A stretch of DNA of 64,000 nucleotides. Origin: Kiloniella laminariae (GTDB lineage Bacteria; Pseudomonadota; Alphaproteobacteria; Kiloniellales; Kiloniellaceae). Position 1 is the stretch's first letter; the number at the start of each line of letters is the position of its first letter. Made by a program: the position numbers and the translations under genes. The notes under the pieces were generated by a model. That model was not told where the DNA came from. It worked only from the letters and a program-made list of their open reading frames with translations, and made no database searches. Shown here piece after piece: positions 3,237-19,913 of the stretch. The stretch is taken from positions 930,001 to 994,000 of the forward strand of contig NZ_JAPWGY010000001.1 of assembly GCF_027214005.1 (NCBI RefSeq), in the 5' to 3' direction.

Positions 3237-3366
3237 AAAAATATCCCCCAATAGTTGTGTCGAGCTTAGGGGGTGTTGACAAAAGACGCAAGAGGGGTCG
3301 CCCCCCGTAATTACGAGAGGAGAGCGGTTGCTGTCGAGAGGGTTTATGTCCCTGGAATAGGCGGCG

Positions 3367-5380: not shown

Positions 5381-6340
5381 ATGCCAAAAGGATCAAGCCG
5401 CGGTGCGAGAGGTACTGGTAGTCATAGCAATACTGGCAACAAAGATCTGGCAGATCGCGCAGGCAGGGGCGGAAGTGACGCGACAGGAAACGGGCGCTCG
5501 GATAATTTCAACAGTAATCGGAGCATTGCAACGCGTGAGCTGAATAAACCGCCAAGCGAGAGAACAACAACCAAAGCCAAGGCTAAACAAGCCACTTTGG
5601 CGTCGCTTGATCAGTTCTTTGATGAGGAGGATGCTGCACTCAACGGCCTTTCCAGAATTCCTGATGTAATGGGGGGCGGTTGGAAAACCGAGGCTGAAGC
5701 CTATACCCCCGAGCAGCTTGAAGAGATGGGAAAAGCGAGGGGATATGAGACGATTACCGAGAATTCCCGGCGGGCAATCGCCAGGCATCGTAGTCCCTTT
5801 GCAGCATTTATGCACAGGCTTGGATCTTTTTTTATGCCGGGCGTGGATTCACATTTAAGCCTTGATCCGAAAACCGGGCAGCTGGCAAGTGTGGATCAGT
5901 TCGATGCGGTTGGGCTTGGATTGGGACTTGCTGGCGGGAGAGGGGCTCCCGGAGTTAACCAGTTTGCCAACTATGCCTATGCCGGACTGAATGAGCTGGG
6001 CATTCAGGCCCCGACCAATACCTCGACCCGAGCACTCTCGGATTTCAGAAATGGCAAACAGGTATCAGGGATCAAGTCCGGCTATGGGTCCGGAAATCTG
6101 TCCGGCCTTTCTGAAGCAGGTTCAGGTGGTGGATTGCGCGAAAGACAGGATGGCAATCAGGGGCTGGCTTCACCTGTGCAATCGCTTTATGAGCAGGCAA
6201 CACAGGTTCTTTATCCCTATGCATTTGAAGAAGAAAATCCGCAGTATGGGGTCGGGGTGTCCTTTGTGCCTTCCACCGTTCGCAAGGCACCAAAGTTGTC
6301 GAGCCTGAATGCCCGGCGGGCCAGATTTGGCAAGGGATGA
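5381..6340 (+). CDS. LYP-tail protein 1, putative virion-associated protein
   Basis: A 319-residue protein of no named family. The first 70 residues are G/S/N/R-rich and probably disordered. A middle block (R-S-P-F-A-A-F-M ... M-P-G-V-D-S-H-L-S-L-D) matches the equivalent block of the gene at 14213 (P-I-R-S-G-F-H ... L-P-G-V-S-G-K-L-T-Y-D). The C-terminus carries the shared tail: Q-V-L-Y-P, E-E-E-N, V-G-V-S-F, then L-N-A-R-R-A-R-F-G-K-G. The same tail ends the genes at 14213, 15149 and 15478, and its first part resembles the scaffold's last residues. It reads with the phage late genes and has its own terminator. Virion association is my inference. Confidence 0.75.
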   Translation: MPKGSSRGARGTGSHSNTGNKDLADRAGRGGSDATGNGRSDNFNSNRSIATRELNKPPSERTTTKAKAKQATLASLDQFFDEEDAALNGLSRIPDVMGGGWKTEAEAYTPEQLEEMGKARGYETITENSRRAIARHRSPFAAFMHRLGSFFMPGVDSHLSLDPKTGQLASVDQFDAVGLGLGLAGGRGAPGVNQFANYAYAGLNELGIQAPTNTSTRALSDFRNGKQVSGIKSGYGSGNLSGLSEAGSGGGLRERQDGNQGLASPVQSLYEQATQVLYPYAFEEENPQYGVGVSFVPSTVRKAPKLSSLNARRARFGKG

Positions 6341-6494
6341 GGATGCTGTTCCGGGCCAGTTTTGTTTCGGCTTTGCAGGTGTTGCGTGTTAAGTATCTGT
6401 TAAGGCTTGTGTCAAAATGGGTTTATGAAAAATTAGCAGTTGCAGGCTTTCCTAATTTGGCTAGGATGCGCCCACGACTGATTGATTGTACCTG

Positions 6495-6534
6495 AGCGCC
6501 GTGAGGTCCTTGTGACCAAGCGGCGCTTTTGGTT
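6495..6534 (+). terminator. intrinsic terminator after LYP-tail gene 1
   Basis: Inverted repeat AGCGCCG ... CGGCGCT followed by TTTTGGTTT, 150 bp after the stop of the + strand gene at 5381-6340. Confidence 0.6.
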
Positions 6535-6635
6535 TCAGGGAAGGTCCTGAGCCAATGACCCTGTATATGTTCCTGTAATGGTCAGAGGTAAAGAACGGGC
6601 GAGAAAACGGAGTGCCCCAGCTCGCGGTAAATAAT

Positions 6636-6992
6636 TTAATCGAACATCTGTCCCAGGGCATAGCCAACCGCGGCGCTGACAAGAACCAGGATAATAGTGC
6701 TGAGCCCATAGCTGCCACCGATAAATTCAATCGTGAGCCAGCTGAAGACAAGAGCAAGTGATGCCCCGATCACTGTCCCTGCGATACCACCAAGAAATTT
6801 GCTCATAAAGCTGTTCGACGTTATTTTCCGGGTTGTTTTTTCCTCTGGCTCGACCTTGACGGCTTTTGTGTTCACGCCAGTCGTGTCGGTATAATTGTCG
6901 GCCGGTTTCAGGGCGAAGGAAATTCCGCTATGGGAAGCCGGCGTGGGGGAAACACTGCCAGAAGATGAAAGCTGTTCAATCGGTGTGGTCAT
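6636..6992 (-). CDS. small membrane protein, prophage moron
   Basis: 118 residues. The first 60 are polar and P/S/T-rich (probably disordered); the rest holds two hydrophobic helices (F-L-G-G-I-A-G-T-V-I-G-A-S-L-A-L-V-F and L-S-T-I-I-L-V-L-V-S-A-A-V-G-Y) with glycine spacing. The start ATG has GGAA 4-5 bases upstream. It lies 165 bp downstream of the usher on the same strand and might be transcribed with the pilus operon. No family recognised. Confidence 0.6.
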   Translation of the reverse strand: MTTPIEQLSSSGSVSPTPASHSGISFALKPADNYTDTTGVNTKAVKVEPEEKTTRKITSNSFMSKFLGGIAGTVIGASLALVFSWLTIEFIGGSYGLSTIILVLVSAAVGYALGQMFD

Positions 6993-7157
6993 GGTTCCAG
7001 TTGGCGTAAGCGGTTTGCTTTTCCAAAGGCCTAATGCGTCTTTAAGGTTGTATTGAATATTGATCTAGTAATTGATATCTGTCAAGAAATTGAATTTCAG
7101 TTATTTTATGTTTTTCAAATCAATCAATCAGGAGTTTAGCCTAGAAGAAGGGGCGCT

Positions 7158-10100
7158 CTAGAGTTTGATTGCGGTCAGGGTCAGGCTTTCGGCAAAGGGC
7201 TGGTCGTCTGTGATCGTCAGCTCTTGCGTCGGACCCGGTTCGAAGCCAAGCAGGGCAAGCTGTTCCGGGTCGAGGCTCAGGCGGTAATGACCGTAAGGGA
7301 TGCGGTTGATAAAAAAGAACCCGTCATAGGCTGTGATGCTCTCAGCAACAAGGGTGCCTTGGCTGTCATGTACCCGTACTTTCAATCCTGTTCCAGGTTC
7401 TGCCCCTGCAGGCAAGTCAAGGTTCTGCCCGGAATTGTCGAGGCCGGGAGATCCGAGGTTTTTTGGGACGTCATCCGGAATGTCGCCCCGGGTGTTGCCT
7501 GGAATGTCATGAGGGAGATCATCGGAGATGATTTCCGGGACAGTGGGTGTTTCGCCCGGCGCCACGATTGAGGGGATTTCGGAAGTTTCCTGCGATGGAT
7601 CACTTTTAAGAGGAGTTTTTGAAGGGGCTGACAAAAGAGCTATGCCGTCGATCTCGCCCGTCATGATAACGGGGAACTGAAGTGATGTGGTGGTTCCCGG
7701 ACGCATGACCAGTTGTCGGGCAGGTTGGGCTGACATCCAGTAGGGGTCCTCCAGAGTGGCTTCGTTCAGGGCGATATCTACAGCCTTGTAGGGTTGCAGC
7801 CCGACAACAAAGGCGGCGCCTTCCTGATCTGTCGTGGTTTCTCGAGGAAGGCGCGTGCCTGAAAATCCGGCGTTCTCGATGGCTTCATCGCCGGGGCCGA
7901 ACTGTCCGTCGTTGTCACGATCAAGAAAAACCTGTGCGCTGACAGCACTTTGCCGGGCAAAAGGTCTGCCGCGAACTTCGATGGTATCATTGGCAGGGTT
8001 GTGGCCAAAGCTGAAGGACAAGCCGAGGCGGGCGCTGTAATCGCCCTTGCTGTCGGCATCGACGTTAAGACCGAGGTAAAAATTTTCATACTGTCGGTTC
8101 AGGCCCAGGCTGGCCGTGGTGATACTTTCTTCGCCGCGAGAATGGCGCAGGCCTGCCCGGGCCCCCATATCCTGATTAATACGCCAGTCCGTGGTAAAGG
8201 CAGCCAGGGTGAACTGTGAGTCCGGAGCGACATCAAACCCGAGTTCGCCGCGCAGGCGGAAATCATCAACCAGAGTGCTGACCAGCAAACGGGCGTCGCT
8301 TTGGGTTTCCTGATCACGGGATAAACGGGTATTGGAAGAAAGCGCGAGGTTCAGAGGACGGACAACGGTTGAGAGGCGATTGAAAATAGTGGTTTGCCAA
8401 TTGCCGTCTTCGCCTCGCTCATGGGCGATGGAGGCCGAAACCGGTTGATGTCCAAGCCCGAAATCGGGAAGGTGCCCATTAATTCTTGCCGTTGTGCTGC
8501 TGCGAAGATGATTGTCGGCAGTCCCGCTTCCTGATTGTTCCGAATGGAAATCCTGGTACCAGACCTGTTCGCCAAAAAGCGACCAGGACCCAAGCTGGGT
8601 CTGCGCCCGTCCCCCAATGGCCAGGCCGCCCGTATCATCAATGGCCAGATCGAGATTGCCGAGGGTGCCAAAGAGGGTAGTCTGTGCGCCAGTCGAGAGG
8701 TACTGCCGTCGCTCGCCGTCTACCGAGAGCAAGGCGAGACCTGCTGTGACAGAAAGGGTTTCGCCTAATCCGTGTTCTGCCTGAAAGATGAAGCGGTTTT
8801 CACCATCATCCGTCTTGCTGTTCTGCTGGTCGTCAAAGGAGATCAGGTCACGGTTGGCCTGGTTAAAGGCAAGGCGAAATGAAGTCCGGTCCGGTTCAGC
8901 CAGTTCCGGCGAGACAAAATAGCGTTCATATTCTTCACGTTTCTGTCCCTGTGGACCAAAAAATACCAGGCGAAATTCGTTGAAGCCGGAGAGTGTGGGC
9001 AGGTTGACGAATTCATATCTGCCATTGCCGATATCCTGGTCAGTCTGAAAGTCAAGTAATTCGCCGTTGCGGTAAACTTCGACCTCCCAGCCGATCGGCA
9101 GTTCTCCACGGAGGGTGACACGGTTGGTCTGTTCCAACCGGTCAAGATCAAATGACGAGATCTCGAACCCCCGCCCGACAGCGTTTTGAGCTACCAGAGG
9201 CAGATCAGGGGTTGAGACGTCGCCGATGGTAAAAGAGCGGGCATCGAGAGGCCCCAGTAGCCCGCCGCTCAGAGATTGGCGTCCCATACGCAGGCGCATG
9301 TTCGGGTTTTCAAGATCTGTACTGGCAATGGTGGTCGCTTCGCTGTCCAGTCCGCCGATGATCCCGGCAACCGTGGTCGTCTGGCGGGCTTGTCCCTGTC
9401 GTTCGTTTGCCGTGTTCCGACCGGAGATCTGGATGCTGGTATCAACGAAAGGCCATTCGAACCAGTCGTTTTCCGGCTCTATCCTTTGCAGTTTTTTTGT
9501 CACCTGGGGATCTGTCAGGTGGGCGCGACGGATCTCGCGGGCAATACGTTCCTGAAGCGGCAAGGGTTCGAGGGGGCGGATGGAGATCTGAAGTTCCTGA
9601 AACTGGACCTCGAGCAGAAGGGGAAACCAGCTTTCCAGTTCTGACAAAGACACATAGAGATCGTCGGGGTGACGTTCAACGCGGCCTGGCGTGATCGGAC
9701 GGACACGACCTTCTATGCTTACCCGGCTGGTGTGAAGGTCGAGAGAGAAGGCCCGGTCATCATTAAGATACCAGCCTGAAGCTGTGCCGCTTTCCGGATC
9801 GACAGTAATGGGGAATTCGAGGGCTTCCAGAAAAGAGCCGAGCGGCACAAAAGCTTCCCTGCCATCATAGAAAATCAAAAAGGCATCGCTCAGCGTATAC
9901 CGCTCAAGCTGGAGGCCAAAGACAAATATCTCGTCATCCGGACGTTCTGCCCAGGTCAGGTTCCCTGCTGTCGGGGGCGGAAATGCCTCTTGCTCAAAAT
10001 CTGATGGAACAGGTGAAACGGGGGTGGCGGGGGATTGGGCAGTTTGAGTGGGGGTGTTCACCCGGGTAGAGGTCTTTTGGGTTGCGAGCTTTGCAGATGC

Positions 10101-10238
10101 AGGGAGAAGTCTTTCATCGAGGTCCCCGGCAGTTGCCGGTTGAGGCAAGGAGCAGAGAGAAAGAACGGCTGAGATAGCCAGTAAACGCAGAAGAGGGGGA
10201 AGGTGCTGCATGGCCGGAGACCGCTGTCTGACGTCCAC
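7158..10238 (-). CDS. chaperone-usher pathway outer-membrane usher
   Basis: Outer-membrane assembly pore that takes chaperone-bound pilin and polymerises it on the cell surface. 1026 residues, longer than PapC/FimD (about 830-870). Domains: signal sequence (about 1-38), periplasmic N-terminal domain (about 90-230), barrel region starting with the R-I-R-R...R-S-F-T-I-G-D-V-S type strand, and a plug-like stretch (W-E-V-E-V-Y-R-N-G-E-L-L). After the barrel come two extra carboxypeptidase-regulatory-like folds (D-R-D-N-D-G-Q-F-G-P-G-D-E and Y-D-G-F-F-F-I-N-R) joined by a P/D/E-rich linker. GTG at 10238 is preferred over the ATG at 10211 because AGGA sits 6 bases upstream of it. It follows the chaperone by 8 bp, so it is co-transcribed. 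Confidence 0.9.
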   Translation of the reverse strand: MDVRQRSPAMQHLPPLLRLLAISAVLSLCSLPQPATAGDLDERLLPASAKLATQKTSTRVNTPTQTAQSPATPVSPVPSDFEQEAFPPPTAGNLTWAERPDDEIFVFGLQLERYTLSDAFLIFYDGREAFVPLGSFLEALEFPITVDPESGTASGWYLNDDRAFSLDLHTSRVSIEGRVRPITPGRVERHPDDLYVSLSELESWFPLLLEVQFQELQISIRPLEPLPLQERIAREIRRAHLTDPQVTKKLQRIEPENDWFEWPFVDTSIQISGRNTANERQGQARQTTTVAGIIGGLDSEATTIASTDLENPNMRLRMGRQSLSGGLLGPLDARSFTIGDVSTPDLPLVAQNAVGRGFEISSFDLDRLEQTNRVTLRGELPIGWEVEVYRNGELLDFQTDQDIGNGRYEFVNLPTLSGFNEFRLVFFGPQGQKREEYERYFVSPELAEPDRTSFRLAFNQANRDLISFDDQQNSKTDDGENRFIFQAEHGLGETLSVTAGLALLSVDGERRQYLSTGAQTTLFGTLGNLDLAIDDTGGLAIGGRAQTQLGSWSLFGEQVWYQDFHSEQSGSGTADNHLRSSTTARINGHLPDFGLGHQPVSASIAHERGEDGNWQTTIFNRLSTVVRPLNLALSSNTRLSRDQETQSDARLLVSTLVDDFRLRGELGFDVAPDSQFTLAAFTTDWRINQDMGARAGLRHSRGEESITTASLGLNRQYENFYLGLNVDADSKGDYSARLGLSFSFGHNPANDTIEVRGRPFARQSAVSAQVFLDRDNDGQFGPGDEAIENAGFSGTRLPRETTTDQEGAAFVVGLQPYKAVDIALNEATLEDPYWMSAQPARQLVMRPGTTTSLQFPVIMTGEIDGIALLSAPSKTPLKSDPSQETSEIPSIVAPGETPTVPEIISDDLPHDIPGNTRGDIPDDVPKNLGSPGLDNSGQNLDLPAGAEPGTGLKVRVHDSQGTLVAESITAYDGFFFINRIPYGHYRLSLDPEQLALLGFEPGPTQELTITDDQPFAESLTLTAIKL

Positions 10239-10246
10239 ATCGGTTC

Positions 10247-11152
10247 CTAGTTTATTATCGCCTTACCTGTGGCAATGACAGGGGCCTTGTTGTCGCCACG
10301 CGGGCGGTATTCGATCAGGATATCCTGGCCTGAGGTGGTGGAGAGTTTATCCTGTATCAGTGGCATGACCACATCGCGGTAAGGTGTGGACAGGTATACA
10401 GCCACGTTGTTCAGACGTCCGACTTCTTCACCACCTGCCAGAGCAACGAGGTCTCCCCGCAGGGACTGTTTGCCGGAACGGGCGATGCGCAGGCTGATAT
10501 TTTTCTCGCCATTGTGTTGTGAGGACTGAATGTTGGTCAGCTGTCCATGGGATTCCAGCTGACCATGACGAACCAGAACGGGAATGGTGATGCCGAAGAT
10601 GGTCTTGATCTCGACAGAAAGTCCGGCCTGTGTTGAAGAGCTTGCTGCTTGAGGCAGGGCTTCCGGTACCTGTTGGAACAGGAGATGGGAACGGTATTCT
10701 CCTTCGGCCAATGTCGCCGGGCGGCGATAGAGAATGCGCACAGTCTGGGGCTTGCCCGGTTCCAGAGTGACCTGACGCGGGGCGTAGCGGAAGAGACCTT
10801 CGGCAAAGCCTTCGTCAGCAGCAGGCGTGCCGGTGGGATAGAGGTTACCCTGGTCATCCATACGATAGTTGATGACTGAGATACGATAGGTTTCGGGTTT
10901 GTCTCCACGGTTGGCCAGGGTCAATGCTGTGCTGCGGTTGCGACTGTCGAGCTCAACCAGCTGTGGGGTGACCACCAGACCGCCGGCAGCCTGGGCTTCT
11001 GTGTGGTAAAAAAGCGAAGAAACGAGTAACGAGAAAGAGAGGGAAAGTAAAAAACAGAGATTTACTTTGAGTTTGTTCCTGCTGCAGTGTTTCTTTTGTA
11101 ATGATTCTGAATTGTTGTGAACTGCTGCGATGGTTTCAAGCTTGTTTTCCAA
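10247..11152 (-). CDS. periplasmic pilus chaperone (PapD-like)
   Basis: Immunoglobulin-fold chaperone that caps pilin subunits in the periplasm by donor-strand complementation and delivers them to the usher. Visible: signal sequence ending Y-H-T-E-A-Q-A-A, then L-V-V-T-P-Q-L-V-E-L-D and the first-domain strands T-A-L-T-L-A-N-R-G-D-K-P-E-T-Y-R, Q-T-V-R-I-L-Y-R-R-P. No ATG fits the N-terminus well; TTG at 11152 is chosen because GGGGGGAAG lies 4 bases upstream. This start context (GTACATTG) is identical to that of the pilin gene. The upstream ATG at 11215 falls inside the intercistronic hairpin and is disfavoured. Confidence 0.85.
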   Translation of the reverse strand: MENKLETIAAVHNNSESLQKKHCSRNKLKVNLCFLLSLSFSLLVSSLFYHTEAQAAGGLVVTPQLVELDSRNRSTALTLANRGDKPETYRISVINYRMDDQGNLYPTGTPAADEGFAEGLFRYAPRQVTLEPGKPQTVRILYRRPATLAEGEYRSHLLFQQVPEALPQAASSSTQAGLSVEIKTIFGITIPVLVRHGQLESHGQLTNIQSSQHNGEKNISLRIARSGKQSLRGDLVALAGGEEVGRLNNVAVYLSTPYRDVVMPLIQDKLSTTSGQDILIEYRPRGDNKAPVIATGKAIIN

Positions 11153-11191
11153 TGTACTTCCCCCCGGAAGAGATCGTCTGTAAAATCGGTA

Positions 11192-11212
11192 GCGGCCCCG
11201 TAAAGGAGCCGC
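11192..11212 (-). terminator. attenuating hairpin between pilin and chaperone
   Basis: GCGGCTCC-TTTAC-GGGGCCGC (minus strand), an 8-bp stem with one G-T pair, 16 bp after the pilin stop and without a long T tract. A partial terminator or RNA-end stabiliser here would give more pilin than chaperone and usher, as is usual in pilus operons. Confidence 0.5.
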
Positions 11213-11227
11213 CATCGAGGATTTGAT

Positions 11228-11722
11228 TTAGTAATTCACTGTTACTGTGTAAGTCCCGGCATAAGCGCCAGAAGCCTGTGTAGCATTGACAACCAGATCT
11301 GCACCGACGTTGAAGGCAAGATCGCCTGAACCGTCTGTGGTCGGTGTGCCACCGGCATCGTGGGTAAAGTTGTTCAAGGTCATGGCTGCACCCGGACCTG
11401 TCAGAGAACCGTTGGTAAAGCTGATGGTGACAGCTGTACTTGCATCACCTGAGGCGGTAAAGGCACCTGCAGCAGGGGAGCCGGAGAAGGTATAGCCAGC
11501 TGGGCCAGAGACAGCACCAGCAGTGGAAATGGTTACAGTTCCCCCGGAGGCATCAACGGCGGTATTCCCGAAATCCATAGCAGTATTCTCGGTGATCGAG
11601 ATGGCCTGCTGGATCTGTGCAGAGGCATTACCTGTTCCATCTGCAGCCATTGATCCTGATGAAGCTACAGCTCCGGTCATAGTAATAACACCATAGGCAA
11701 TGTATTTTAGTGATTTCTTCAA
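11228..11722 (-). CDS. DUF4402-type major pilin subunit
   Basis: Structural subunit of the chaperone-usher pilus. TTG at 11722 is chosen: AAGGA lies 8 bases upstream and the resulting N-terminus (M-K-K-S-L-K-Y-I-A-Y-G-V) is a good signal peptide cleaved near S-M-A-A-D-G. The mature part matches the DUF4402 pattern: I-Q-Q-A-I-S-I-T-E-N, M-D-F-G-N-T-A-V-D-A-S-G-G-T-V-T-I, a glycine/alanine-rich beta body, F-N-V-G-A-D-L-V-V-N and the terminal G-T-Y-T-V-T-V-N-Y. It is the first gene of the pilin-chaperone-usher operon; no separate tip adhesin gene is visible. Confidence 0.88.
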   Translation of the reverse strand: MKKSLKYIAYGVITMTGAVASSGSMAADGTGNASAQIQQAISITENTAMDFGNTAVDASGGTVTISTAGAVSGPAGYTFSGSPAAGAFTASGDASTAVTISFTNGSLTGPGAAMTLNNFTHDAGGTPTTDGSGDLAFNVGADLVVNATQASGAYAGTYTVTVNY

Positions 11723-12141
11723 TGTACAGTTCCTTGCAGTTGATTTGTATACGAAATGAATATTATGTAATAGCGCTATTGACGAGGATGAATTTTTATA
11801 TTGATTCAATTAATTCTTGGTTAATTGTGATTTTTATTGAGAATCGACTTTTTTATACTGTAAAGTGGTGTGCATTAGTGTTTTTTGCGCCTTATGCGTG
11901 TTTGATCTATACTCTTGATTGTTTTTCTGGTCGTAAAATACTCTTGTTACCCTGGGAGCGAATTGTGAGTAACTATTTTCCGAACAGGAGGTTTTTTTTG
12001 AAATATATGTTTGTTTGGCCGGAAGGCCGGGGTGCCATCCCTCCGGAGACCCTCTTCAAGATTACTTTGAACAGGATATCAGATGAGAAGGCGGCGCTGT
12101 CAGGAATTTCCCGGACTGAATTTTTATCCCGCTGTTCAGCG
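11723..12141. other. AT-rich intergenic region upstream of the pilin
   Basis: Between the pilin start and the first copy of the 250-bp repeat. It must contain the pilus operon promoter; AT-rich hexamers are present but I cannot pick a convincing -35/-10 pair. A 153-codon + strand frame runs through it but has no good ribosome binding site and mixes AT-rich with GC-rich sequence, so I do not call it a gene. Confidence 0.4.
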
Positions 12142-12391
12142 AGATACTTTTTATTTCGTTTTCAATCCTGATAAACTCGTTCCCGGACCATTGTGACTTT
12201 CGGTGTCACTGGGGATGCCATCAGGTTCATCGTGTTTTTCAGGTCACGCAGTTGCGTGGCTTTTTTGTTTCATTGGGCAAAAATATTATTAACAGTTTGG
12301 TCGTTAGGAGATTGAGTAGTGGCAAAGGGAGCTTATGACGGTTCAGGTGGCTGGTCGGGTGATGGAGGCTCAAACCCGGGAAATGAGGATA
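12142..12391 (+). repeat. 250-bp direct repeat, copy 1 (truncated gene start)
   Basis: Matches 14036-14285. The first 30 bp or so have several mismatches; from GATAAACTCGTTCCCGG onward the two copies are identical through GGGAAATGAGGATA. The repeat contains a terminator-like hairpin, the leader, the ribosome binding site and the first 24 codons of the gene at 14213. The two copies bracket the minus-strand genes at 12654-13892. Confidence 0.95.
12243..12266 (+). terminator. terminator-like hairpin in repeat copy 1
   Basis: GTCACGC-AGTT-GCGTGGC followed by TTTTTTG, 50-70 bp before the GTG start in this repeat. The identical structure is at 14137-14160. Confidence 0.6.
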
Positions 12392-12396
12392 GATAA
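12319..12396 (+). pseudogene. truncated 5' copy of LYP-tail gene 2
   Basis: GTG start and 24 codons identical to the gene at 14213, then one differing codon and TAA. It retains the ribosome binding site (TAGGAGATTGAGTA) and could still direct synthesis of a 25-residue peptide, but it is best read as the leftover of the duplication that accompanied insertion of the two genes downstream. Confidence 0.85.
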
Positions 12397-12653
12397 CCCC
12401 TTGAATGTGACTGGATAGCTTTAGAGTGTAAAAAGATGGGTTAATACTCTTTGTATTAAAAAAAATAGATAAAATATTATTTTGTTACCGAAACAGTGAT
12501 TTTTTAAGTGATCATTCCGTGAGCAGGTGAGTCCTGACTATAATTATCATTTTAAAATTTCTTTTTGGATAGGGAGAAAACAAAACATGTTGTGGCAGTC
12601 GCCATCTAAATAAAAGGAATTTATTCAAGTTTTCTAGAGATAACCGAGCTGTC
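12397..12653. other. AT-rich gap after the truncated repeat
   Basis: 257 bp of AT-rich sequence downstream (on the minus strand) of the CxC gene pair. I see no gene, no clear terminator and no repeat here; it is presumably the outer edge of the inserted segment. Confidence 0.4.
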
Positions 12654-13220
12654 TTAGGAGGCTTTTGTTAAAGCCGTACAGTATCTAACGTGTTGATTAA
12701 GTTGTGGTTGGAAAAGATTATGGCCTGTTAGTAGATATTCGATATTGTTATCTTCGAGTGGGGTACCGTTCGAGATAAGCGTAAATAATTCCTGTTGTTC
12801 TTGGCTGTAGTGTTCCCACACACTTTCGGCCACGCAGCCACAAATTTCGACTTGTACCAGACGGGGCAGAACGACCTGCGGCTCAGAGTTCGTGATTCTA
12901 TCTCGGCTTTTGAAGAGAATAAAATCTGAAATGCAACTGTGATAAAGGACCGTTTTTCCTGGTGTCTTCAATAGCTCTGCAAGAGTTGTTAAGGCGTCTG
13001 TAACAACTGGGAAGTGGGCCAAGAAAATACCGCTCCTGATCTTTGATTCAAGTTCGATAGATCCGGTCGGATTATCATGAAGATCTGATATTGCCGTTGT
13101 AAATCTCTGTTCTTGCTCAAAAGTTAGAGCCAAACCTGTGGCATTTCTTTCATTCGCTTTTACTGGAAGAGAAGAGAATGAAAGAAATGCAAGTGTGATT
13201 ATTATAATAGCCAGCTTCAT
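12654..13220 (-). CDS. exported cysteine protein, CxC family member 3
   Basis: Start at 13220 (AGG upstream) gives a clear signal peptide, M-K-L-A-I-I-I-I-T-L-A-F-L ... P-V-K-A-N-E. It is the most divergent member of the exported family: Y-H-S-C-I-S-D, E-I-C-G-C-V-A-E-S-V-W-E, F-T-L-I-S-N-G and a late Y-C-T-A-L-T, corresponding to the Y-x-x-C, C-x-C...W, F-x-x-I-x-x-G and C-terminal Cys positions of the genes at 2571 and 13260. It lies directly downstream of member 2 on the same strand (about 40 bp gap). Function unknown. Confidence 0.78.
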   Translation of the reverse strand: MKLAIIIITLAFLSFSSLPVKANERNATGLALTFEQEQRFTTAISDLHDNPTGSIELESKIRSGIFLAHFPVVTDALTTLAELLKTPGKTVLYHSCISDFILFKSRDRITNSEPQVVLPRLVQVEICGCVAESVWEHYSQEQQELFTLISNGTPLEDNNIEYLLTGHNLFQPQLNQHVRYCTALTKAS

Positions 13221-13259
13221 TCTAAACCTGGTGTAAAAAAGGGCGACTGTAATCGTCAT

Positions 13260-13892
13260 CTATCGCAATGAAAGCATTTCTTCGTAAAGTCCTAATGCCC
13301 GGATGTTACACACCATGCCCAGAGTACTTGCTTTTTCTTCGTCTGTTTTTTTGAGAATGTTGCTTAGTTCTTCAGGTGTTGTGTCAATACCGTTAACAAT
13401 TTTATCAAACACAGGACGTTTATCAGTAGAGGTGAAGTTCCAGCTGTTCTCCGCATGGCAACGACAAGTTGTTTCAATTTCTTCTGGCGTATAATTAATG
13501 ATACGATTCATAACCTTTCTGGTGAAGCTCTTCCGGTCTGCTGGCAAACGTGGATTACGCAGTACGTTTTCAAAAGTATCGGCGATACCGTTTCTGTCTT
13601 CAGATGAATGAATTTCATCAAGGCATGTCTGATAATAAATAGCCTTGCCAGGTGGATCGAAAGCAACAGCTGTCTGCTGTAACTGTTTCAGAGTACGTGA
13701 GGGGAGATGCGTGAAGGTTTTGTTTTCAATTTTCTGGATAAACGCGTCGTCTTTGAGTTTTTCAGCCTGATTATAGGAAGTTGTAGGGACCGAATTCCTC
13801 AGTTGAGCCAGCGAGGATCGATCAGCATCAGACAGGGTCTGACACGCGGTTAGAAATACGGTGAGGAGAAGTGGTGCAAGGAACAAGCGCAT
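13260..13892 (-). CDS. lipoprotein, CxC family member 2
   Basis: Start at 13892 gives a lipoprotein signal M-R-L-F-L-A-P-L-L-L-T-V-F-L-T-A-C. Family motifs are Y-Y-Q-T-C-L-D-E, T-T-C-R-C-H-A-E-N-S-W-N, F-D-K-I-V-N-G, and M-V-C-N-I-R-A-L-G-L-Y-E-E-M-L-S-L-R at the end. The final motif aligns closely with A-I-G-L-Y-D-E-Y-L of the gene at 2571. Membrane-anchored version of the family, forming a tandem pair with the gene at 12654. The pair is bracketed by the 250-bp direct repeats. Confidence 0.8.
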   Translation of the reverse strand: MRLFLAPLLLTVFLTACQTLSDADRSSLAQLRNSVPTTSYNQAEKLKDDAFIQKIENKTFTHLPSRTLKQLQQTAVAFDPPGKAIYYQTCLDEIHSSEDRNGIADTFENVLRNPRLPADRKSFTRKVMNRIINYTPEEIETTCRCHAENSWNFTSTDKRPVFDKIVNGIDTTPEELSNILKKTDEEKASTLGMVCNIRALGLYEEMLSLR

Positions 13893-14035
13893 GAAAATAC
13901 TCTGATAAAATGTCTGTTGGGGGCAATACATGAAGAAATGGAGATAGTTAGACGAGGTGACGATGGCAATATCTGACCGTAATGTCAATCAGAGGCTGTA
14001 ATGTCTTTTTAAAATAACGTTTCCGAGTGTGGGCA

Positions 14036-14285
14036 AGATACTTTTTATTTCATTTTGAACACCGATAAACTCGTTCCCGGACCATTGTGACTTTCGGTGT
14101 CACTGGGGATGCCATCAGGTTCATCGTGTTTTTCAGGTCACGCAGTTGCGTGGCTTTTTTGTTTCATTGGGCAAAAATATTATTAACAGTTTGGTCGTTA
14201 GGAGATTGAGTAGTGGCAAAGGGAGCTTATGACGGTTCAGGTGGCTGGTCGGGTGATGGAGGCTCAAACCCGGGAAATGAGGATA
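14036..14285 (+). repeat. 250-bp direct repeat, copy 2 (intact gene start)
   Basis: Second copy of 12142-12391; here the repeat runs into the full-length gene at 14213. The copies are 1894 bp apart. Confidence 0.95.
14137..14160 (+). terminator. terminator-like hairpin upstream of LYP-tail gene 2
   Basis: GTCACGC-AGTT-GCGTGGC then TTTTTTG, 52 bp before the GTG start at 14213. It would insulate the gene from upstream + strand transcription. Confidence 0.6.
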
Positions 14286-15145
14286 AATCACCGGGGGATA
14301 ACAGACCAGAAGACCGAATGAGCAAAGCCGGGAATGGTACATGGGGAACGGCGAGCAAGCAGGCGTCATCTGTTAGTGATGAGCAGATAAGGGCTATGCG
14401 CGAGAAACATAGAAAACCCGGTTTTAATCCAACGCCTTCACCGCCTTCCAACTATACAGGAACCTGGGGCGAATGGACGGAAAGATACAACCGGGCAAAT
14501 AGGTTGGGGCGGTACAGCAATGCATTGAATGAACCATTGGATGTTGAAGATCAAAGAGCGCTGTCCAAGATGATCTCTCCCAAACACAAACCGGGAACGC
14601 CGGAATACAACAAAGCTGTCGCGGCGCGGAATGTTCGGGCTCAGTCAATTGCAGCGTATAATCATCCGATACGATCCGGGTTTCACAATTTCCTGTCTAG
14701 CTTGTTGCCTGGCGTGAGCGGCAAACTGACGTATGATACCTACGGTAACCTGGCCACAGAAAAGCGCTTTAATGTTCCTGATTTTGTAGCGAGCCTTCCA
14801 AGTCCAAGATTCATGGGGTTTGGGATGTCCACACCTGCTGGGATCGCTGCTAAAGCAGCCGTGGCTGCTGCAGGCCTTGCAGGATATCGCTCCAAAGATT
14901 TCGTAGATATTCAAAGCATGTCCGATGCTTTGGATGAAATGTCGATTACTCCAGAACGGTCAAGTGACAATAGTTCTTCAACCCGGTCAATTGCGAAACG
15001 TCCCGAGGATATTCTTTACCCCTACACGGTGGAGGATGAAAATCTGCCCGCTGGGCAAGGGGTTTCTTTCGGAGCAACGCCGGTTCGCAGGGCGCCGGTA
15101 CTTACGGCGTTGAACAGGCGGCGTGCAGCTTATGGGAGGGGGTAG
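14213..15145 (+). CDS. LYP-tail protein 2, putative virion-associated protein
   Basis: 310 residues; GTG start with AGGAG 9 bases upstream. Glycine/serine-rich N-terminus, a middle block resembling the gene at 5381 (P-I-R-S-G-F-H, L-P-G-V-S-G-K-L-T-Y-D-T-Y-G-N-L-A), an alanine-rich stretch (A-A-K-A-A-V-A-A-A-G-L-A-G-Y), and the shared C-terminal tail: R-P-E-D-I-L-Y-P, E-D-E-N, Q-G-V-S-F, P-V-R-R-A-P and L-N-R-R-R-A-A-Y-G-R-G. First of three consecutive genes with this tail. Not a family I can name; virion association is inferred from the scaffold-like L-Y-P motif and the phage context. Confidence 0.78.
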   Translation: MAKGAYDGSGGWSGDGGSNPGNEDKSPGDNRPEDRMSKAGNGTWGTASKQASSVSDEQIRAMREKHRKPGFNPTPSPPSNYTGTWGEWTERYNRANRLGRYSNALNEPLDVEDQRALSKMISPKHKPGTPEYNKAVAARNVRAQSIAAYNHPIRSGFHNFLSSLLPGVSGKLTYDTYGNLATEKRFNVPDFVASLPSPRFMGFGMSTPAGIAAKAAVAAAGLAGYRSKDFVDIQSMSDALDEMSITPERSSDNSSSTRSIAKRPEDILYPYTVEDENLPAGQGVSFGATPVRRAPVLTALNRRRAAYGRG

Positions 15146-15148
15146 AAG

Positions 15149-15460
15149 GTGAGTTTGACGAACAGTTACAAGGGGCATTCGCTTCAGGGAGAGTGGCGGG
15201 AGCGGAATAACAGCCTTTCTGCATCCAGAAATGGTCCGACGCAAAACCCTGTTCAAAACAGGGAGCGGGCAAACTCACTTGCATCGGTGAGGCGGATTGA
15301 GCAGAGGCCTGAGCAGATACTCTACCCCCAGTATCGCCCTGTTGAGGAAAAGAAAGCGCTTTCCCCCTATGTGTCATTAGCGGCGTCGCCTGTGCAGCGC
15401 TTGCGCGGTATGGGGCTGCTGAATGTCCGCCGGGCATTGTACGAACGTGGCGACAGTTGA
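15149..15460 (+). CDS. LYP-tail protein 3 (short form)
   Basis: 103 residues; GTG start 3 bp after the previous stop, with a G-rich ribosome binding region (GGGGGTAGAAG). The first 55 residues are polar and probably disordered; the rest is the tail: R-P-E-Q-I-L-Y-P-Q-Y-R-P-V-E-E, S-P-Y-V-S-L, S-P-V-Q-R-L-R-G-M-G and L-N-V-R-R-A-L-Y-E-R-G. Its tail is almost identical to that of the next gene, so the two are recent duplicates in that part, while the N-termini differ. Confidence 0.75.
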   Translation: MSLTNSYKGHSLQGEWRERNNSLSASRNGPTQNPVQNRERANSLASVRRIEQRPEQILYPQYRPVEEKKALSPYVSLAASPVQRLRGMGLLNVRRALYERGDS

Positions 15461-15477
15461 GTGGAAAGGTCTGATCA

Positions 15478-15777
15478 ATGAGTTTTTTGGCTATTTCCTC
15501 TGGTGAGGAGTCTTCCCGGGAGCGGGGAGAGTTTGTTCGCAAATCTCTGTCCAACCCGGAACCTGTAAAAAACAGTGGTGGCGGAATTAGTATGGGGCCT
15601 TTTACCGCGAGGCAAAGAAGGCCGGAAGCGGTACTTTATCCACAATATCGTCCGCTTGAAGAACAAAAGGTGCTTTCGCCCTATGTCTCGCTCGCGCCTT
15701 CGCCAGTACAGAAATTACGTGGCATGGGGGTATTGAATGTGCGTCGGGCCCTGTATGAACGCGGGGATGGGGTTTAA
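15478..15777 (+). CDS. LYP-tail protein 4 (short form)
   Basis: 99 residues; ATG with AAAGG 8 bases upstream. Polar N-terminus, then R-P-E-A-V-L-Y-P-Q-Y-R-P-L-E-E, S-P-Y-V-S-L, S-P-V-Q-K-L-R-G-M-G-V and L-N-V-R-R-A-L-Y-E-R-G. Together with the gene at 15149 it shows that the roughly 50-residue tail can occur almost alone, so it is a separable module. Function unknown. Confidence 0.75.
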   Translation: MSFLAISSGEESSRERGEFVRKSLSNPEPVKNSGGGISMGPFTARQRRPEAVLYPQYRPLEEQKVLSPYVSLAPSPVQKLRGMGVLNVRRALYERGDGV

Positions 15778-15914
15778 TGGCGAAGTAATTTTAAAATTCG
15801 GCGAAAAACAAAATTAGATTTCTCGCAATTGTAGAAAGTACCTTCCATTAGAACCTCGAAAAGTGCTACTGAAACGGGTTGTATTTATCGCTTACAGTGA
15901 CTTCCGGGGGGAAT

Positions 15915-16889
15915 ATGCTCAGCATCCAAGAAAACACCAACAGGCTTTTATCTGCCTTTGACGACAGGGAAAAAGGTTTTTGGGTCTGGTTTGCCAGTGT
16001 GATCCCCCTGATCCTGATTTCCGGAATTCTTGTAGTGCTTGTGGTGGCGGGATATTTCCTGTCAAATCCCGAGATTTTGGATAATCCGGCTTTACTTCAA
16101 ACACCAGAACTTTTGATAAAAGTAGAGGATTATGACCGGGATGCTGTGATCCGGAGGACGTTGACGTATTTTCTTTCGGTTGCAGTGATCTTCCCCGGTA
16201 TTTTTGTTGCACTCAAGATGTTTCGTTTGAAGGTTTCCGATATCATCGCTCCGGGGGATACAGTGCGTTGGGGGACGATATGGGGGCTCGCCCTGACGAC
16301 GTTGGTGATTGCCATATCTGGTGTCCTCGTTTTTGGATGGCTTGACGAGGTCCAATATTCCTATGAACCCCATTCTGGTTGGGGATGGGGTGTCGTTGTT
16401 GTCATGATTCCGATTGTTGCGCTACAGGCCATGACAGAGGAGCTGTTTTTTCGCGGCTATCTGTTGCAGCTTGTCGGGCGCTTTACCCGGCGCTGGTGGC
16501 TTATTCTCCTGATTATCGCAGGACTGTTTTTCGCCATGCATCTGTCCAATCCGCCGGTTGAGGTTTTTGGCTGGTATGCGTTATTCAGCTATGCGATGAG
16601 TTCGGTTCTTTTTACTTTTCTGGCATTAAAAACCGGGCGACTGGAATATTCCATTGCGCTGCATATTGGCTGGAACTGGTCGGTTTTATTCGTAGATACG
16701 CGGCTAAGTCCGGATATGTACATGGGTATCGGGTCTTTTGTCATCGATTTTAAACCAGATATTATTTCTGCAGTTCAGGATATTTTTGTGGCGGCGGGGC
16801 TCTATTATCTGGCGATGATGTTCTACAGAAAAAATATCTCCAGCGGGTACAGAGGTTCTGTGGAAGCTGTTCCGTCAGCCGGAGAATGA
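15915..16889 (+). CDS. CPBP family intramembrane metalloprotease
   Basis: Membrane protein of the CAAX-protease/bacteriocin-processing (CPBP, Abi) family. The start at 15915 has GGGGGGAAT immediately upstream. About 7-8 hydrophobic segments. Family motifs: T-E-E-L-F-F-R-G-Y-L-L (EExxxR), F-A-M-H-L-S-N-P (first His) and A-L-H-I-G-W-N-W (second His), so the catalytic residues look intact. Members process or protect against prenylated or peptide substrates; here it is a + strand accessory gene just before the portal. A role in lysogeny, bacteriocin immunity or surface-protein handling is possible but not shown. Confidence 0.85.
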   Translation: MLSIQENTNRLLSAFDDREKGFWVWFASVIPLILISGILVVLVVAGYFLSNPEILDNPALLQTPELLIKVEDYDRDAVIRRTLTYFLSVAVIFPGIFVALKMFRLKVSDIIAPGDTVRWGTIWGLALTTLVIAISGVLVFGWLDEVQYSYEPHSGWGWGVVVVMIPIVALQAMTEELFFRGYLLQLVGRFTRRWWLILLIIAGLFFAMHLSNPPVEVFGWYALFSYAMSSVLFTFLALKTGRLEYSIALHIGWNWSVLFVDTRLSPDMYMGIGSFVIDFKPDIISAVQDIFVAAGLYYLAMMFYRKNISSGYRGSVEAVPSAGE

Positions 16890-16949
16890 AAGCGCCGATA
16901 TATATCAAAAAATCGAGAAAAATATTTTCGTGATACTTTGTTTGCTCTT

Positions 16950-16978
16950 TTGACAGGGGCTATATTCGTCCTTGGATA
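16950..16978 (+). promoter_or_regulatory. possible promoter upstream of the portal
   Basis: TTGACA at 16950 followed 17 bp later by TGGATA (overlapping GGATAAAT). The -35 box is perfect, the -10 box poor. It would transcribe through the terminator at 17017 into the structural operon. Confidence 0.35.
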
Positions 16979-17016
16979 AATGGGTCTGCCGCAAGGTGGT
17001 TCCGAAGATTGTTTTA

Positions 17017-17059
17017 AACCCTCCCAACTTTACCTTTACCGGTTTTGGGAGGGTTTTTT
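17017..17059 (+). terminator. strong terminator before the portal gene
   Basis: AACCCTCCCAA ... TTTTGGGAGGG followed by TTTTTTG. It separates the accessory block from the structural operon that begins at 17115. Confidence 0.8.
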
Positions 17060-17114
17060 GTTGTCCGTATTTTGAACCCGGTCTCTGTGACACAAGAGAC
17101 AGACTGGAGAGCTT

Positions 17115-18794
17115 ATGGAACTGGCTGAAAAGGTGATCAACCGCCAGAGCGCATTGCAGCAGGAGCGGCAGAAATTCGAGAAGATCTGGAAGGAAACCGC
17201 CGAGCGGCTTGATCCCTTCGGGTCGATCCTTGAAGGTTCTGTCGGCGATATGTCAAAGATGTACAGCTCGCGTCCCTTGCAGGATCTGGCACGCTTTGCG
17301 GCGGCGATTGAAAGCCTGCTGATCCCGCGCGGGTCGATCTGGCACGGGCTGGAGCCGATGGATGACGAGCTCAAGCAAAACGACGAGGTGCAGGTCTGGG
17401 CCGAAGCACAGACCAAGAAGCTGTTTGCCGTGCGCTATATGGCGCAGTCGGGATTTGTTGCCAATACCCAGCGCATGTTCCGCTCGCTTGGCTGTTACGG
17501 CAATCAGGTGATGATGACCGAGGAAGTACTGGGGCGCGGTCCCGGTGGTATGGACCTGCCACCGATCCGCTATCGCATGATCCCGATGATCGAGTGTTTT
17601 CTGGCCACCACGGCCTGGGGACAGATTGATACTTTCTATCGGGTGTACAAGCTGACCCTGCGGCAGATGATCCAGGAATTCGGCGAGGAAAACCTGCCGG
17701 ACTTTCTCAAGGTCCGTATGGACAAGCCGGATATTCTGGAACAGAAATTCGAGATCATCCATGCCATTGATACCTCGCTGGCCGATGGGGTGGCAACGCA
17801 GTTGCCCTGGCCGTCGGTGCATGTGCTTAAAGGTCAGAACCATGTGCTGAGGCAGTCGGGCTATTACGAGTTTCCGATCCATGCCTCGTCTTTTGTCGAG
17901 AGCGACGGCCATGCCTATGGCTGGGGGCCGGGGATGATGGCGCTGCCGGATATCAAGCAGCTCAACATCATGAACAAGACCACGATTGCGGCAGCAGAAC
18001 AGGCGGTATCGCCTGCTTTTGCCACGGTGCAAAAGCTCAAGCGGCGTCTGAACCTGAGTGCCGGGGCAATCAACCCGGATCTGATTACCGAAGACGGGCG
18101 CCTGAAAATCCAGCCGATTGCCACCGGCGTTCGTCCGGATATCGGCGAGCAGTTGATCGCCAAGAAACAGGCAGATATCGGGGCCAATTTTTATGTCGAT
18201 CTCTGGCAAATTCTGGTCAACAAGCCGGATATGACGGCCTATGAGGCGGCCTTGCGGGCACAGGAAAAGAGCGAGCTGATCGGGCCGCCTTTTGCCAAGC
18301 AGGAAGAAATGCTGGCCTCCATCGTCATGCGCGAAAACGCGATACTGGAACGACAGGCAGCGGATGGCATTATCGATTTGCCGCCACGCCCGGAGATCCT
18401 GCAGGGGCGCAAGTTGTCGCTGAAATTCACCAGCCCCATGGCCAAATTGCGCCGGGCGGCAGAAGACGCAGGTATCCAGCGTACGCTGGAGACCGCGGCC
18501 CAGCAGGCCCAGTTCGATCCAAGTATCATGGACAATTTTGACCACGACCGGATTATCCGGGCGCGGGCGGATATCAACGGCATGCCTGCGGATCTGCTCA
18601 ACCCGATTGAGCTGGTTGAGGCCCGCCGCCAGGCCCGTCAACAGGCAGAACAGCAACAGGACATGGCTGCACAGCAGGCGCAAAGCCTTGATATGGCGGG
18701 CAAGGCCCTGCCGATGATGGAGGCGCTGGGGGCCGCGGGTATTGATCCCGCTGCACTGGAAGCGGCTGCAGCTGAAGGAGGTCCGGTTGCTTAA
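17115..18794 (+). CDS. portal (head-tail connector) protein
   Basis: Forms the dodecameric ring at the capsid vertex through which DNA enters and leaves. 559 residues, typical of the podovirus head-to-tail connecting protein family. N-terminus W-K-E-T-A-E-R-L-D-P-F and S-S-R-P-L-Q-D-L-A-R-F-A-A-A-I-E-S-L-L-I-P-R-G; the central G-W-G-P-G-M-M-A-L-P-D-I-K-Q-L-N is characteristic. The C-terminus is a Q/A-rich helical barrel region. First gene of the uninterrupted head block; overlaps the next gene's TTG start. Confidence 0.93.
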   Translation: MELAEKVINRQSALQQERQKFEKIWKETAERLDPFGSILEGSVGDMSKMYSSRPLQDLARFAAAIESLLIPRGSIWHGLEPMDDELKQNDEVQVWAEAQTKKLFAVRYMAQSGFVANTQRMFRSLGCYGNQVMMTEEVLGRGPGGMDLPPIRYRMIPMIECFLATTAWGQIDTFYRVYKLTLRQMIQEFGEENLPDFLKVRMDKPDILEQKFEIIHAIDTSLADGVATQLPWPSVHVLKGQNHVLRQSGYYEFPIHASSFVESDGHAYGWGPGMMALPDIKQLNIMNKTTIAAAEQAVSPAFATVQKLKRRLNLSAGAINPDLITEDGRLKIQPIATGVRPDIGEQLIAKKQADIGANFYVDLWQILVNKPDMTAYEAALRAQEKSELIGPPFAKQEEMLASIVMRENAILERQAADGIIDLPPRPEILQGRKLSLKFTSPMAKLRRAAEDAGIQRTLETAAQQAQFDPSIMDNFDHDRIIRARADINGMPADLLNPIELVEARRQARQQAEQQQDMAAQQAQSLDMAGKALPMMEALGAAGIDPAALEAAAAEGGPVA

Positions 18795-19065
18795 GGGTTG
18801 GAATTTTTCCCTGAAAAAACAGCATGAGCTGGTGGACGCCTACGCCCGGCTTTTTGCCACATTGGACGGCCAGCTGGTTCTGGCAGATATCCTTGATCAG
18901 GCGGCGGCTTTTGAAGCCACGCCCCCAGGGGGACCGTCGGTGTTTAACGATGGCAAACGGGCCATTGCCTTTGACATTTTGCGCAAGGCCTCGATCAGCG
19001 CCGATCTTCGGGCTGAACTGGCCAAGGCGGCTTATCTTGCACAAGAGGAAGATCAACAGGAATGA
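18787..19065 (+). CDS. Bbp19-like small phage protein
   Basis: About 92 residues starting at TTG 18787, which has an ideal ribosome binding site (AAGGAGGT, 4 bases away) inside the end of the portal gene. Contains A-Y-A-R-L-F-A-T-L-D-G-Q-L-V-L-A-D-I-L and N-D-G-K-R-A-I-A-F-D-I-L, matching small proteins found between portal and scaffold in BPP-1-like podophages. Exact function unknown. The stop overlaps the next start (ATGA). Confidence 0.75.
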   Translation: MLKGWNFSLKKQHELVDAYARLFATLDGQLVLADILDQAAAFEATPPGGPSVFNDGKRAIAFDILRKASISADLRAELAKAAYLAQEEDQQE

Positions 19066-19913
19066 GTGAATATGACGTCTCTGCTTCTGCTGAAACCACG
19101 GGTTCAGGTAGTGCACCACCCGGCCATCCCCATGATAAACCCCAGTCTTTCCCACATCAAAGAGATGGGGATTATGCTTCCGGACCCGCCTCGACAGAGA
19201 GCGGGATTTTTTATGCCCGATCAGAAGAAGGACGGGACCAGGAGCCGGGAACGGTCAGCCATTATCTGAATAATCCCGCTGTTGCCGGAGGAGAACAAAA
19301 CCCCACTGCAGCAGAGGGGATAAAATCACAGCAGGACGCAGACGGCTTTGTCCGCCTGCCGGGACAGGATGCTTCGCCCGAAGAGGTCGATGCTTTTTAT
19401 GCCGCGCTGGGTGTGCCGGAAAGTCCGGAAGGATACGAGCTGCACCTGCCGAAAGATCTGGAAGTCGAGGGATCGGAAGAACAGTGGGGGCAGTACCGTT
19501 CTGCCATCAGCGAGCTGTCCCACGCCCTGGGTTTGTCACCACAACAGGCACAGGCACTGGCTGATCTGGATCTGCAGGCGAAAAGCCAGTCGATGGAAAA
19601 CCTGCAGGTCGAACGCGAACGTTATCTCAAACAACAGATTGACGACACTCTTGGCACGTTGCGCCAGGAATGGGGCGGCAATCTGGATGCGAATGTCAGA
19701 ACCGCAAACCGGGCACTCCGGGCCTTTGGCGGTTCTGAACTGGAAGCCGTGTTGAACGAAGCGGGGGTTCTGAATGATCCCGTGGTTCTGCGCGCTTTCC
19801 ACAAAGCTGGCCTCTCCCTGGTAGAGGACAGCAGTCCCGGCGGAGCCGGTGCAACCCGACGCAACAGATCTGCTGCGGAAATTCTCTACCCATCATCTAC
19901 TAAGGAAGGCTGA
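19062..19913 (+). CDS. capsid scaffold protein
   Basis: Internal scaffold that directs procapsid assembly and then leaves. 283 residues. Disordered, acidic N-terminal 90 residues; the hallmark segment F-Y-A-A-L-G-V-P-E-S-P-E-G-Y-E-L; then a long helical part (K-Q-Q-I-D-D-T-L-G-T-L-R-Q-E-W-G-G-N). It ends S-A-A-E-I-L-Y-P-S-S, the L-Y-P motif also seen in the accessory proteins at 5381, 14213, 15149 and 15478. In T7-like phages the scaffold C-terminus contacts the capsid, so this end may be the docking peptide. Followed by the capsid gene after 2 bp. Confidence 0.88.
   Translation: MSEYDVSASAETTGSGSAPPGHPHDKPQSFPHQRDGDYASGPASTESGIFYARSEEGRDQEPGTVSHYLNNPAVAGGEQNPTAAEGIKSQQDADGFVRLPGQDASPEEVDAFYAALGVPESPEGYELHLPKDLEVEGSEEQWGQYRSAISELSHALGLSPQQAQALADLDLQAKSQSMENLQVERERYLKQQIDDTLGTLRQEWGGNLDANVRTANRALRAFGGSELEAVLNEAGVLNDPVVLRAFHKAGLSLVEDSSPGGAGATRRNRSAAEILYPSSTKEG

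Follow-up and report, generated by a model that had tools for sequence, protein, structure and literature searches.

What do four proteins encoded between the terminase and the portal gene of a phage-like element do with a C-terminal tail that they have in common? The question is raised by a stretch of 64,000 nucleotides from Kiloniella laminariae (contig NZ_JAPWGY010000001.1, positions 930,001 to 994,000), referred to below as the window, in which the genes at 5381, 14213, 15149 and 15478 end in the same module of about 50 residues. Comparison with related phages leads us to favour, on balance, the reading that the E-x-I/V-L-Y-P core of this tail is the capsid-docking tag that also ends the scaffolds of phages of the epsilon15/BPP-1 type, and often their gp10 protein, and that it serves as a portable tag on late proteins of an element resembling a gene transfer agent (GTA).

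All four genes lie on the plus strand. Two encode long proteins, 5381..6340 (319 residues; tail at 6182-6337, core QATQVLYP, a weak match to the scaffold tag) and 14213..15145 (310 residues; tail at 14987-15142, core RPEDILYP), and two encode short ones, 15149..15460 (103 residues; tail at 15296-15451, core RPEQILYP) and 15478..15777 (99 residues; tail at 15613-15765, core RPEAVLYP). The residues that an earlier note on this DNA had listed for the tail were all present: it has [E/Q]x[I/V]LYP, an acidic E-[E/D] spot, V-S-[F/L] and LNxRRAx[Y/F]x[R/K]G in all four proteins, with P-V-[R/Q] in three of them and T-V-R instead in 5381. The same note had called the proteins unrelated, and two of them almost only tail, and both descriptions need correction. 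By their sequences the four are two families with a common tail, i.e., two paralogous pairs. The long proteins are diverged paralogues (about 25% identical) with a Gly/Ser/Asn-rich N-terminus and a middle region common to both, and sequence comparison indicated that this family diverges fast; the short proteins are paralogues with 55% identity, and the tail makes up about half of each. Pfam, PHROGs and PADLOC gave no useful match for any of the four, nor did annotated phages and the PDB contain useful relatives of the tail or of the long proteins. The tail module itself is probably disordered.

The protein encoded just upstream of the capsid gene (19062..19913, plus strand, 283 residues; phrog_3742 and phrog_458, the latter labelled protease) is presumed to be the scaffold from its position and homology. 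It ends in SAAEILYPSSTKEG, containing the A-E-I-L-Y-P-S that had been noticed before, and its tag SAAEILYP (about 19869-19892) lies 6 residues from the end. All 7 scaffolds of the element that were read in the genus end in ILYP, and distant homologues have comparable ends: AERMYPNYPA in Ab31, SAAEVLYGK in HEMP4, AEIMYPDLK in Carin1, ARRLYAASNMNP in BPP-1 and AADVMFGDVFKA in HU1. For a broader sample, we turned to 149 loci, namely 147 from IMG/VR (two overlapping capsid-gene scans, each contributing at most 80 of the matches listed) and the loci L102 and L103, and read the end of the gene that directly precedes the capsid gene. This end was obtained in 142; three loci with a truncated capsid gene and four too near a contig end were left out. 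We defined a loose tag (one of L/M/R/I/K/A/Y, then Y or F, then P/G/S/A, or else WYG, within the last 25 residues) and a strict tag ([ILVMTQ][LM]Y[PG]). Among the distinct scaffold ends from outside Kiloniella, 122 of 126 carried the loose and 82 of 126 the strict tag, compared with 155 and 2 of 1797 other proteins of the same contigs, a background that includes the proteins of Kiloniella contigs. The tag of scaffolds is followed by 0-10 residues (median 4). Four of the 142 ends failed the loose pattern (L165, L180, L168 and L174); the failure of L165 was a wrong frame call, its true neighbour ending in SPAEILYPNT, and L180 looks like a wrong frame too. The ends of epsilon15 itself (AFYP) also fail the loose pattern and are not among the 126.

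The tails of the window were then scored with a tag profile built from 94 distinct scaffold tags, all from outside Kiloniella. Among 72 window proteins (15149 was added by hand after an overlap filter had dropped it), the first four places were taken by the scaffold (20.2), 14213 (15.5), 15149 (14.6) and 15478 (13.3), followed by a protein with a score of 10.8, and the same four came first when gp10 tags were added to the profile. Only 9 of 433743 background 8-mers reached a score of at least 13. The 24 tails known from the genus have a median best score of 15.4, which at most about 1 in 60000 background 8-mers attain; among their cores, those that score lowest (QATQVLYP, QAQHILYP, RAQQTLYP and RAAQQLYL) all belong to the long family. 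That a single element has one short motif both on its scaffold and on other proteins is thus strongly supported for three of the four window proteins and weakly for 5381.

A second carrier of the tag appeared when all other proteins of the contigs were scanned for the strict pattern. It is a protein of about 100 residues encoded between the cement protein and the tail tube, and it belongs to the epsilon15 gp10 family (PF21628; phrog_825; PDB 3j40); the small Bbp15-like protein, which had been considered for this role, was the wrong candidate, the carrier being the next gene. In the named phages with a gp10 of PF21628 (that of Vibrio 1.021.B was identified by tblastn), the protein has an aromatic, tag-like end in 7 of 7 cases and fits the loose pattern letter by letter in four; the ends outside the pattern are AFYP in E15 and SPN1S and LYK in RapA. 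Scaffold and gp10 ends are alike phage by phage: ISAFYPKK and KDAFYPDGEDD in epsilon15, SAAEVLYGK and SAAETLYGNGGE in phiV10, ARRLYAASNMNP and AQRLYGASSMSA (Bbp20) in BPP-1, NRMYPDM and ARMYADDPSMKD in CP2, AKSLYPNSNHN and AAKLYKDTD in RapA, VSLLYPNDKTA and AEQLYGPKS in Vibrio 1.021.B, and in SPN1S ends with one residue different from those of epsilon15. Among the coding sequences read for Carin1, Ab31 and HU1 there was no gp10 end. As the 33 proteins from which the gp10 profile was started had been selected by their strict tag, the strict count of 33 of 49 is circular; among the 16 members added by homology, 10 carried the loose tag.

In 49 non-redundant phages, the similarity between scaffold and gp10 ends was 1.78 in mixed pairs and 2.53 within a phage; the within-phage value was not reached in any of 20000 permutations, and it also exceeded the 2.29 obtained with the nearest capsid-protein neighbour (Wilcoxon p = 0.013). 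The capsid proteins of this set are less than 95% identical (four pairs were dropped at 95% or above, and L219 for its lack of a gp10 tag); shared ancestry and gene conversion are only partly controlled. That the two ends change together is best explained by one shared, changing partner, for which the capsid protein would be the obvious candidate. According to passages of PMC9207676, proteomics of infectious epsilon15 particles gave a putative identification of gp10, and its assignment to an outer "staple" density was later judged probably wrong, a 130-residue protein fitting better; a passage of a 2025 paper places gp10 on the inner surface (PMC12391199), so that, as far as these passages go, its position is disputed. 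The passages of the BPP-1 capsid paper at hand contained nothing on the scaffold (PMC3863775), and among the matches listed in the open-access literature we found no report of a C-terminal tag shared by scaffold and gp10. The proposal that the tail imitates the docking end of the scaffold, made at first from six residues of a single scaffold, has therefore gained well beyond that basis, as the motif ends scaffolds across the phage family and gp10 as well; the part of it that spoke of four unrelated proteins has given way to two families, and packaging remains a prediction.

Within Kiloniella, a genus of marine bacteria, the tail was found 24 times, in 7 of 9 genomes. L and Y are invariant in 24 of 24 tails and P is present in at least 90% of the rows, a recurrence that is more than chance. 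A profile built from these 24 tails was searched in 61 genomes of the order and gave nothing convincing beyond them, its six partial matches in other genomes (E 0.02-0.08) being chance-like. The earlier note would have counted tails outside the element, or scaffolds without L-Y-P, against its idea; no convincing tail outside the element turned up, and no scaffold without L-Y-P among those of the element read in the genus, although with a tail confined to one genus this is a weak test. Homologues of 14213, the scaffold and the capsid protein likewise occur in 7 of 9 Kiloniella genomes, and the two genomes without the element are a partial assembly (77% complete) and one of 440 contigs (97%). 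Public contigs with this capsid gene (94-100% identical) come from K. laminariae, K. majae, K. litopenaei, K. spongiae, K. sp. EL199 and one uncultured metagenome-assembled genome. A pattern scan of IMG/VR with 14213 gave no match, which is a weak negative, since five Kiloniella-type IMG/VR contigs, retrieved via their capsid gene (L104 and L185-L188), do carry the tail.

The place of the tailed genes is as regular as their motif. In the six genomes with a whole interval between the terminase large subunit and the portal, 21 of 21 tails lie inside it, and in the seventh, where the interval is split over two contigs, the tail positions are consistent with this. All 24 tails are encoded on the strand of the structural genes, while 40 of 44 other genes of the interval (those conserved in at least one more genome, in the six genomes) are on the opposite strand. 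For this count seventeen LYP genes were selected by script, the strands of all 24 coming from the separate tail search; of the other genes counted on the same strand, one is a truncated part of an LYP gene, and two of those on the opposite strand are probably antisense artefacts. Because all tailed genes follow the structural strand and most of their neighbours the other, they look like part of the late unit.

We propose that the tag, set within its module on two families of late-operon proteins, would let these attach to the major capsid protein while the procapsid is being built, as the scaffold presumably does, either alongside scaffold copies or in place of some of them, and that the tailed proteins would be kept in the particle as internal or shell-lining proteins and may leave it with the DNA. 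Docking of the tail onto the capsid protein seems rather likely to us, loading into particles has the balance slightly in its favour, and ejection with the DNA is doubtful. The capsid targeting sequence of phage T4 is N-terminal and protease-cut; the Kiloniella tag, in contrast, lies near the C-terminus and resembles the scaffold's own end, and packaging is here a prediction. The principle would be the same, as one short conserved sequence sends otherwise diverse proteins into the T4 prohead scaffold core, and the T4 internal proteins have only this sequence in common (passages of PMC3012670). Epsilon15 gp10 is comparable as a non-scaffold virion protein ending in a scaffold-type tag, but it has another domain and carries the tag at its very end. 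The view of the tailed proteins as docking cargo has a precedent in CpmB, in which a scaffold motif stands on a second protein: as described in parts of PMC5644958, CpmB of SaPI1 and the scaffold of 80alpha share a C-terminal RIIK hook that binds the same cleft of the capsid protein. There, too, a short C-terminal motif is found on two different proteins; the motif is RIIK and not LYP, it serves size redirection by a satellite, and no sequence relation is claimed.

The same precedent can be turned into a different explanation, according to which the tailed proteins are alternative or helper scaffolds that compete for the scaffold's site on the capsid protein and determine how large the shell becomes or what shape it takes, in the way that CpmB acts against the scaffold of 80alpha. 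The common RIIK hook would fit this, the short proteins, whose tail accounts for half of their small length, are encoded in the direction of the late genes, and a GTA-like element could profit from a smaller shell. We nevertheless regard it as unlikely, since the large variable regions of the long proteins would not be needed for size control and one element can hold two long and two short copies; a dimer domain cannot be judged from the poor structure model.

Several observations weigh against a docking tag as such. The match to the scaffold spans six to eight residues, and since the tails share ancestry it is in effect one event; an L-Y-P core of this size could have converged. The protein at 5381 ranks 12th of 72 with a score of 6.1 (11th, via a different 8-mer, with gp10 tags in the profile), cores of its type (QATQVLYP, QAQHILYP) match weakly, and QQLYL stands in one homologue. 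The core is followed by 40-44 residues in the window proteins, so that the tag is not terminal as it is in scaffolds and gp10, which is the main structural difference; the conserved basic end of the tails (PVRR..L..LN.RRA) is left unexplained by docking and is unlike scaffolds and gp10. The AlphaFold2 model of 14213 is poor (mean pLDDT, the predicted local distance difference test, 53), and we know of no Kiloniella particle. On the side of the scaffolds, the tag is missing from the ends in the GP7-type phage LS06 and the contigs L168 and L174. Public annotation of the family is divided: some records have it as a capsid assembly or scaffold protein, others as a protease or peptidase, among the latter PHROG 458, epsilon15 gp6 and BPP-1 Bbp18. 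Scaffold relatives beside another capsid type, with no GP7-type capsid gene in their stretches, had been considered as a contrast; 0 of 8 such loci end in the tag, yet the contrast is not clean, as three of the eight (two from one genome) fit the loose pattern with RLYG or KLYG 12 residues from the end.

Some of these points would suit a module specific to Kiloniella that spread by paralogy and has a different function, such as binding DNA or the portal with its basic LN.RRA end, with a likeness to the scaffold that arose by chance or convergence: the match is short, the position of the tag differs, the 5381-type core is weak, and for the basic end no counterpart is seen in scaffold ends. Against it, L-Y never varies in the tails and P nearly never does, and a profile trained outside the genus places all window proteins of the set but 5381 directly below the scaffold, at scores that are rare in the background; we consider this explanation improbable. 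It is very improbable that the tailed proteins are capsid poisons, which would attach to the capsid protein of related invaders and disrupt the assembly of these. Non-phage genes also lie in the terminase-portal interval and the long proteins diverge fast, but all 24 tails are on the late strand of the element that carries them, where most other genes of the interval are not; such proteins would poison that element too, and PADLOC had no match for the four.

Docking by a shared tag, to return to the reading we prefer, concerns an element that the earlier note had taken for a prophage, which in the usual sense is probably wrong. In each of the 7 genomes that carry the element, a gene for a topoisomerase I-RecD2 fusion adjoins the terminase genes, and two further genes of the left flank are common to 6 of 7; the right flank is common only to G002, G003 and G005 among the stretches compared. 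The fusion consists of a type IA topoisomerase and a RecD2-like helicase (1475 residues, about 7.4 to 2.9 kb left of the window; L038:7635-12062, minus strand), and its role beside a phage structural cluster is unexplained. Compared with G001, the capsid protein is 99.7% identical with a synonymous divergence (dS) of 0.44, RpoB 99.3% with a dS of 0.24; compared with the group G002-G008, the values are 95.6-95.9% and 1.39-1.87 for the capsid protein and 90.3-90.4% and 1.13-1.28 for RpoB. Synonymous divergence is thus no lower than that of rpoB, the one host gene used (values above 1 are near saturation), and the capsid protein is better conserved than RpoB; other phage genes fall below RpoB, with identities to the G002-G008 group of 83-85% for the portal and 60-64% for the scaffold. 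The three tyrosine integrase genes of the genome are all on contigs other than that of the element; serine recombinases and replication genes were not systematically searched.

The element is accordingly found to be inherited with its host at a fixed locus under purifying selection, and this, together with the old divergence, fits a domesticated, GTA-like element. We infer a GTA-like block that is spread across the genus and has been inherited for a long time, and not an ordinary prophage. Counting against strict domestication, the 75-kb contig IMGVR_UViG_2890351070, which by its number probably comes from an isolate, carries two related copies about 45 kb apart (L104 and L187), with capsid proteins 96% and 94% identical to that of the window; the interval of the second copy holds one LYP-tail protein and a gene with a weak HTH_3 match below the Pfam cut-off. 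As in RcGTA and BaGTA, a phage structural cluster is kept at one place across a genus, with old divergence and purifying selection; the Kiloniella element differs in its epsilon15-type capsid and is known here from its genes alone. To our knowledge, the capsid of known GTAs is of another type than that of epsilon15. For the GTA groups we follow passages of PMC9662315; a part of PMC6821227 gives 0 RcGTA-like clusters in 5 genomes of Kiloniellales, obtained with a tool that targets another GTA family. Among the matches listed, no literature report of a GTA from the epsilon15/BPP-1 capsid lineage was found.

Taken to its full extent, the argument would make the Kiloniella element a short-tailed GTA of the epsilon15/BPP-1 lineage in which the scaffold tag marks a varying set of proteins for loading and for delivery to recipient cells together with DNA; the phage family as a whole would use the tag as a loading code, and gp10 would be its regular bearer. 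This is a long shot. If true, the capsid lineage known structurally from epsilon15 and BPP-1 would have a readable code for proteins that dock on the capsid protein as the shell is assembled, minor and internal head proteins could be predicted from sequence, epsilon15 gp10 would be given a testable place, and a possible GTA would be indicated in a capsid lineage for which none has been reported among the matches mentioned above.

The remaining structural genes of the window, all on the plus strand, follow the gene order of epsilon15, i.e., portal, small gene, scaffold or "protease," capsid protein, Bbp16 cement and tail tubes. The terminase large subunit is encoded at 15..1286, its frame extending to about 213 bases left of the window, and the portal, the head-tail adaptor, at 17115..18794 (phrog_332). 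The major capsid protein (19916..20935), the presumed partner of the tag, is of the epsilon15 gp7/BPP-1 Bbp17 type and matches PF20911 (GP7-type major capsid protein) at E 2e-132; the profile of its family recovers PDB 3j4u, 3j40 and 8cjz. At about residues 181-188 it has a conserved internal LLYPxG/IYPKG segment that is tag-like and does not change with the scaffold tag. The idea that the tag mimics this segment is unsupported, as the segment keeps Y where the scaffold has F. A second epsilon15-type capsid gene (53% identical; L275, G000:C61:142385-143296) lies near a contig end; the genes after it are host-like by eye, and it is perhaps a remnant of another such phage. The capsid gene is followed by the cement protein of the Bbp16/epsilon15 gp8 type (20952..21374; PF21190), a small untagged protein (21371..21580) that is profile-related to a gene in the position of BPP-1 Bbp15, and two tail (tube) proteins of 192 and 587 residues (21716..24057; phrog_394 and phrog_376). 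Between 21580 and 21716 the list of open reading frames (minimum 50 residues) contained no gp10-like plus-strand frame, and PF21628 matched in 0 of 9 Kiloniella genomes, in a search whose controls matched in 0 of 14.

In the interval with the tailed genes, a partial copy of gene 14213 (12319..12399, plus strand) comprises its first 25 codons followed by a stop and ends a 260-bp duplication with 97% identity (12139-12398 and 14033-14292). The other genes of the interval, among them a PapD-type chaperone, a DUF4402 subunit, an usher-like gene and TM2 proteins, look like passengers. The usher-like, chaperone and DUF4402 genes lie at 7158-11809 on the minus strand; the usher-like call was made by eye, Pfam giving no usher match, and among the genomes read this set is common only to G001 (84-92% identical). 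Related small proteins, exported or lipoprotein-like by eye and assigned to no family, are encoded at 2571-3377, 12654-13259 and 13260-13988 on the minus strand, and relatives of them occur in the same interval of G001, G002, G003, G005 and G008.

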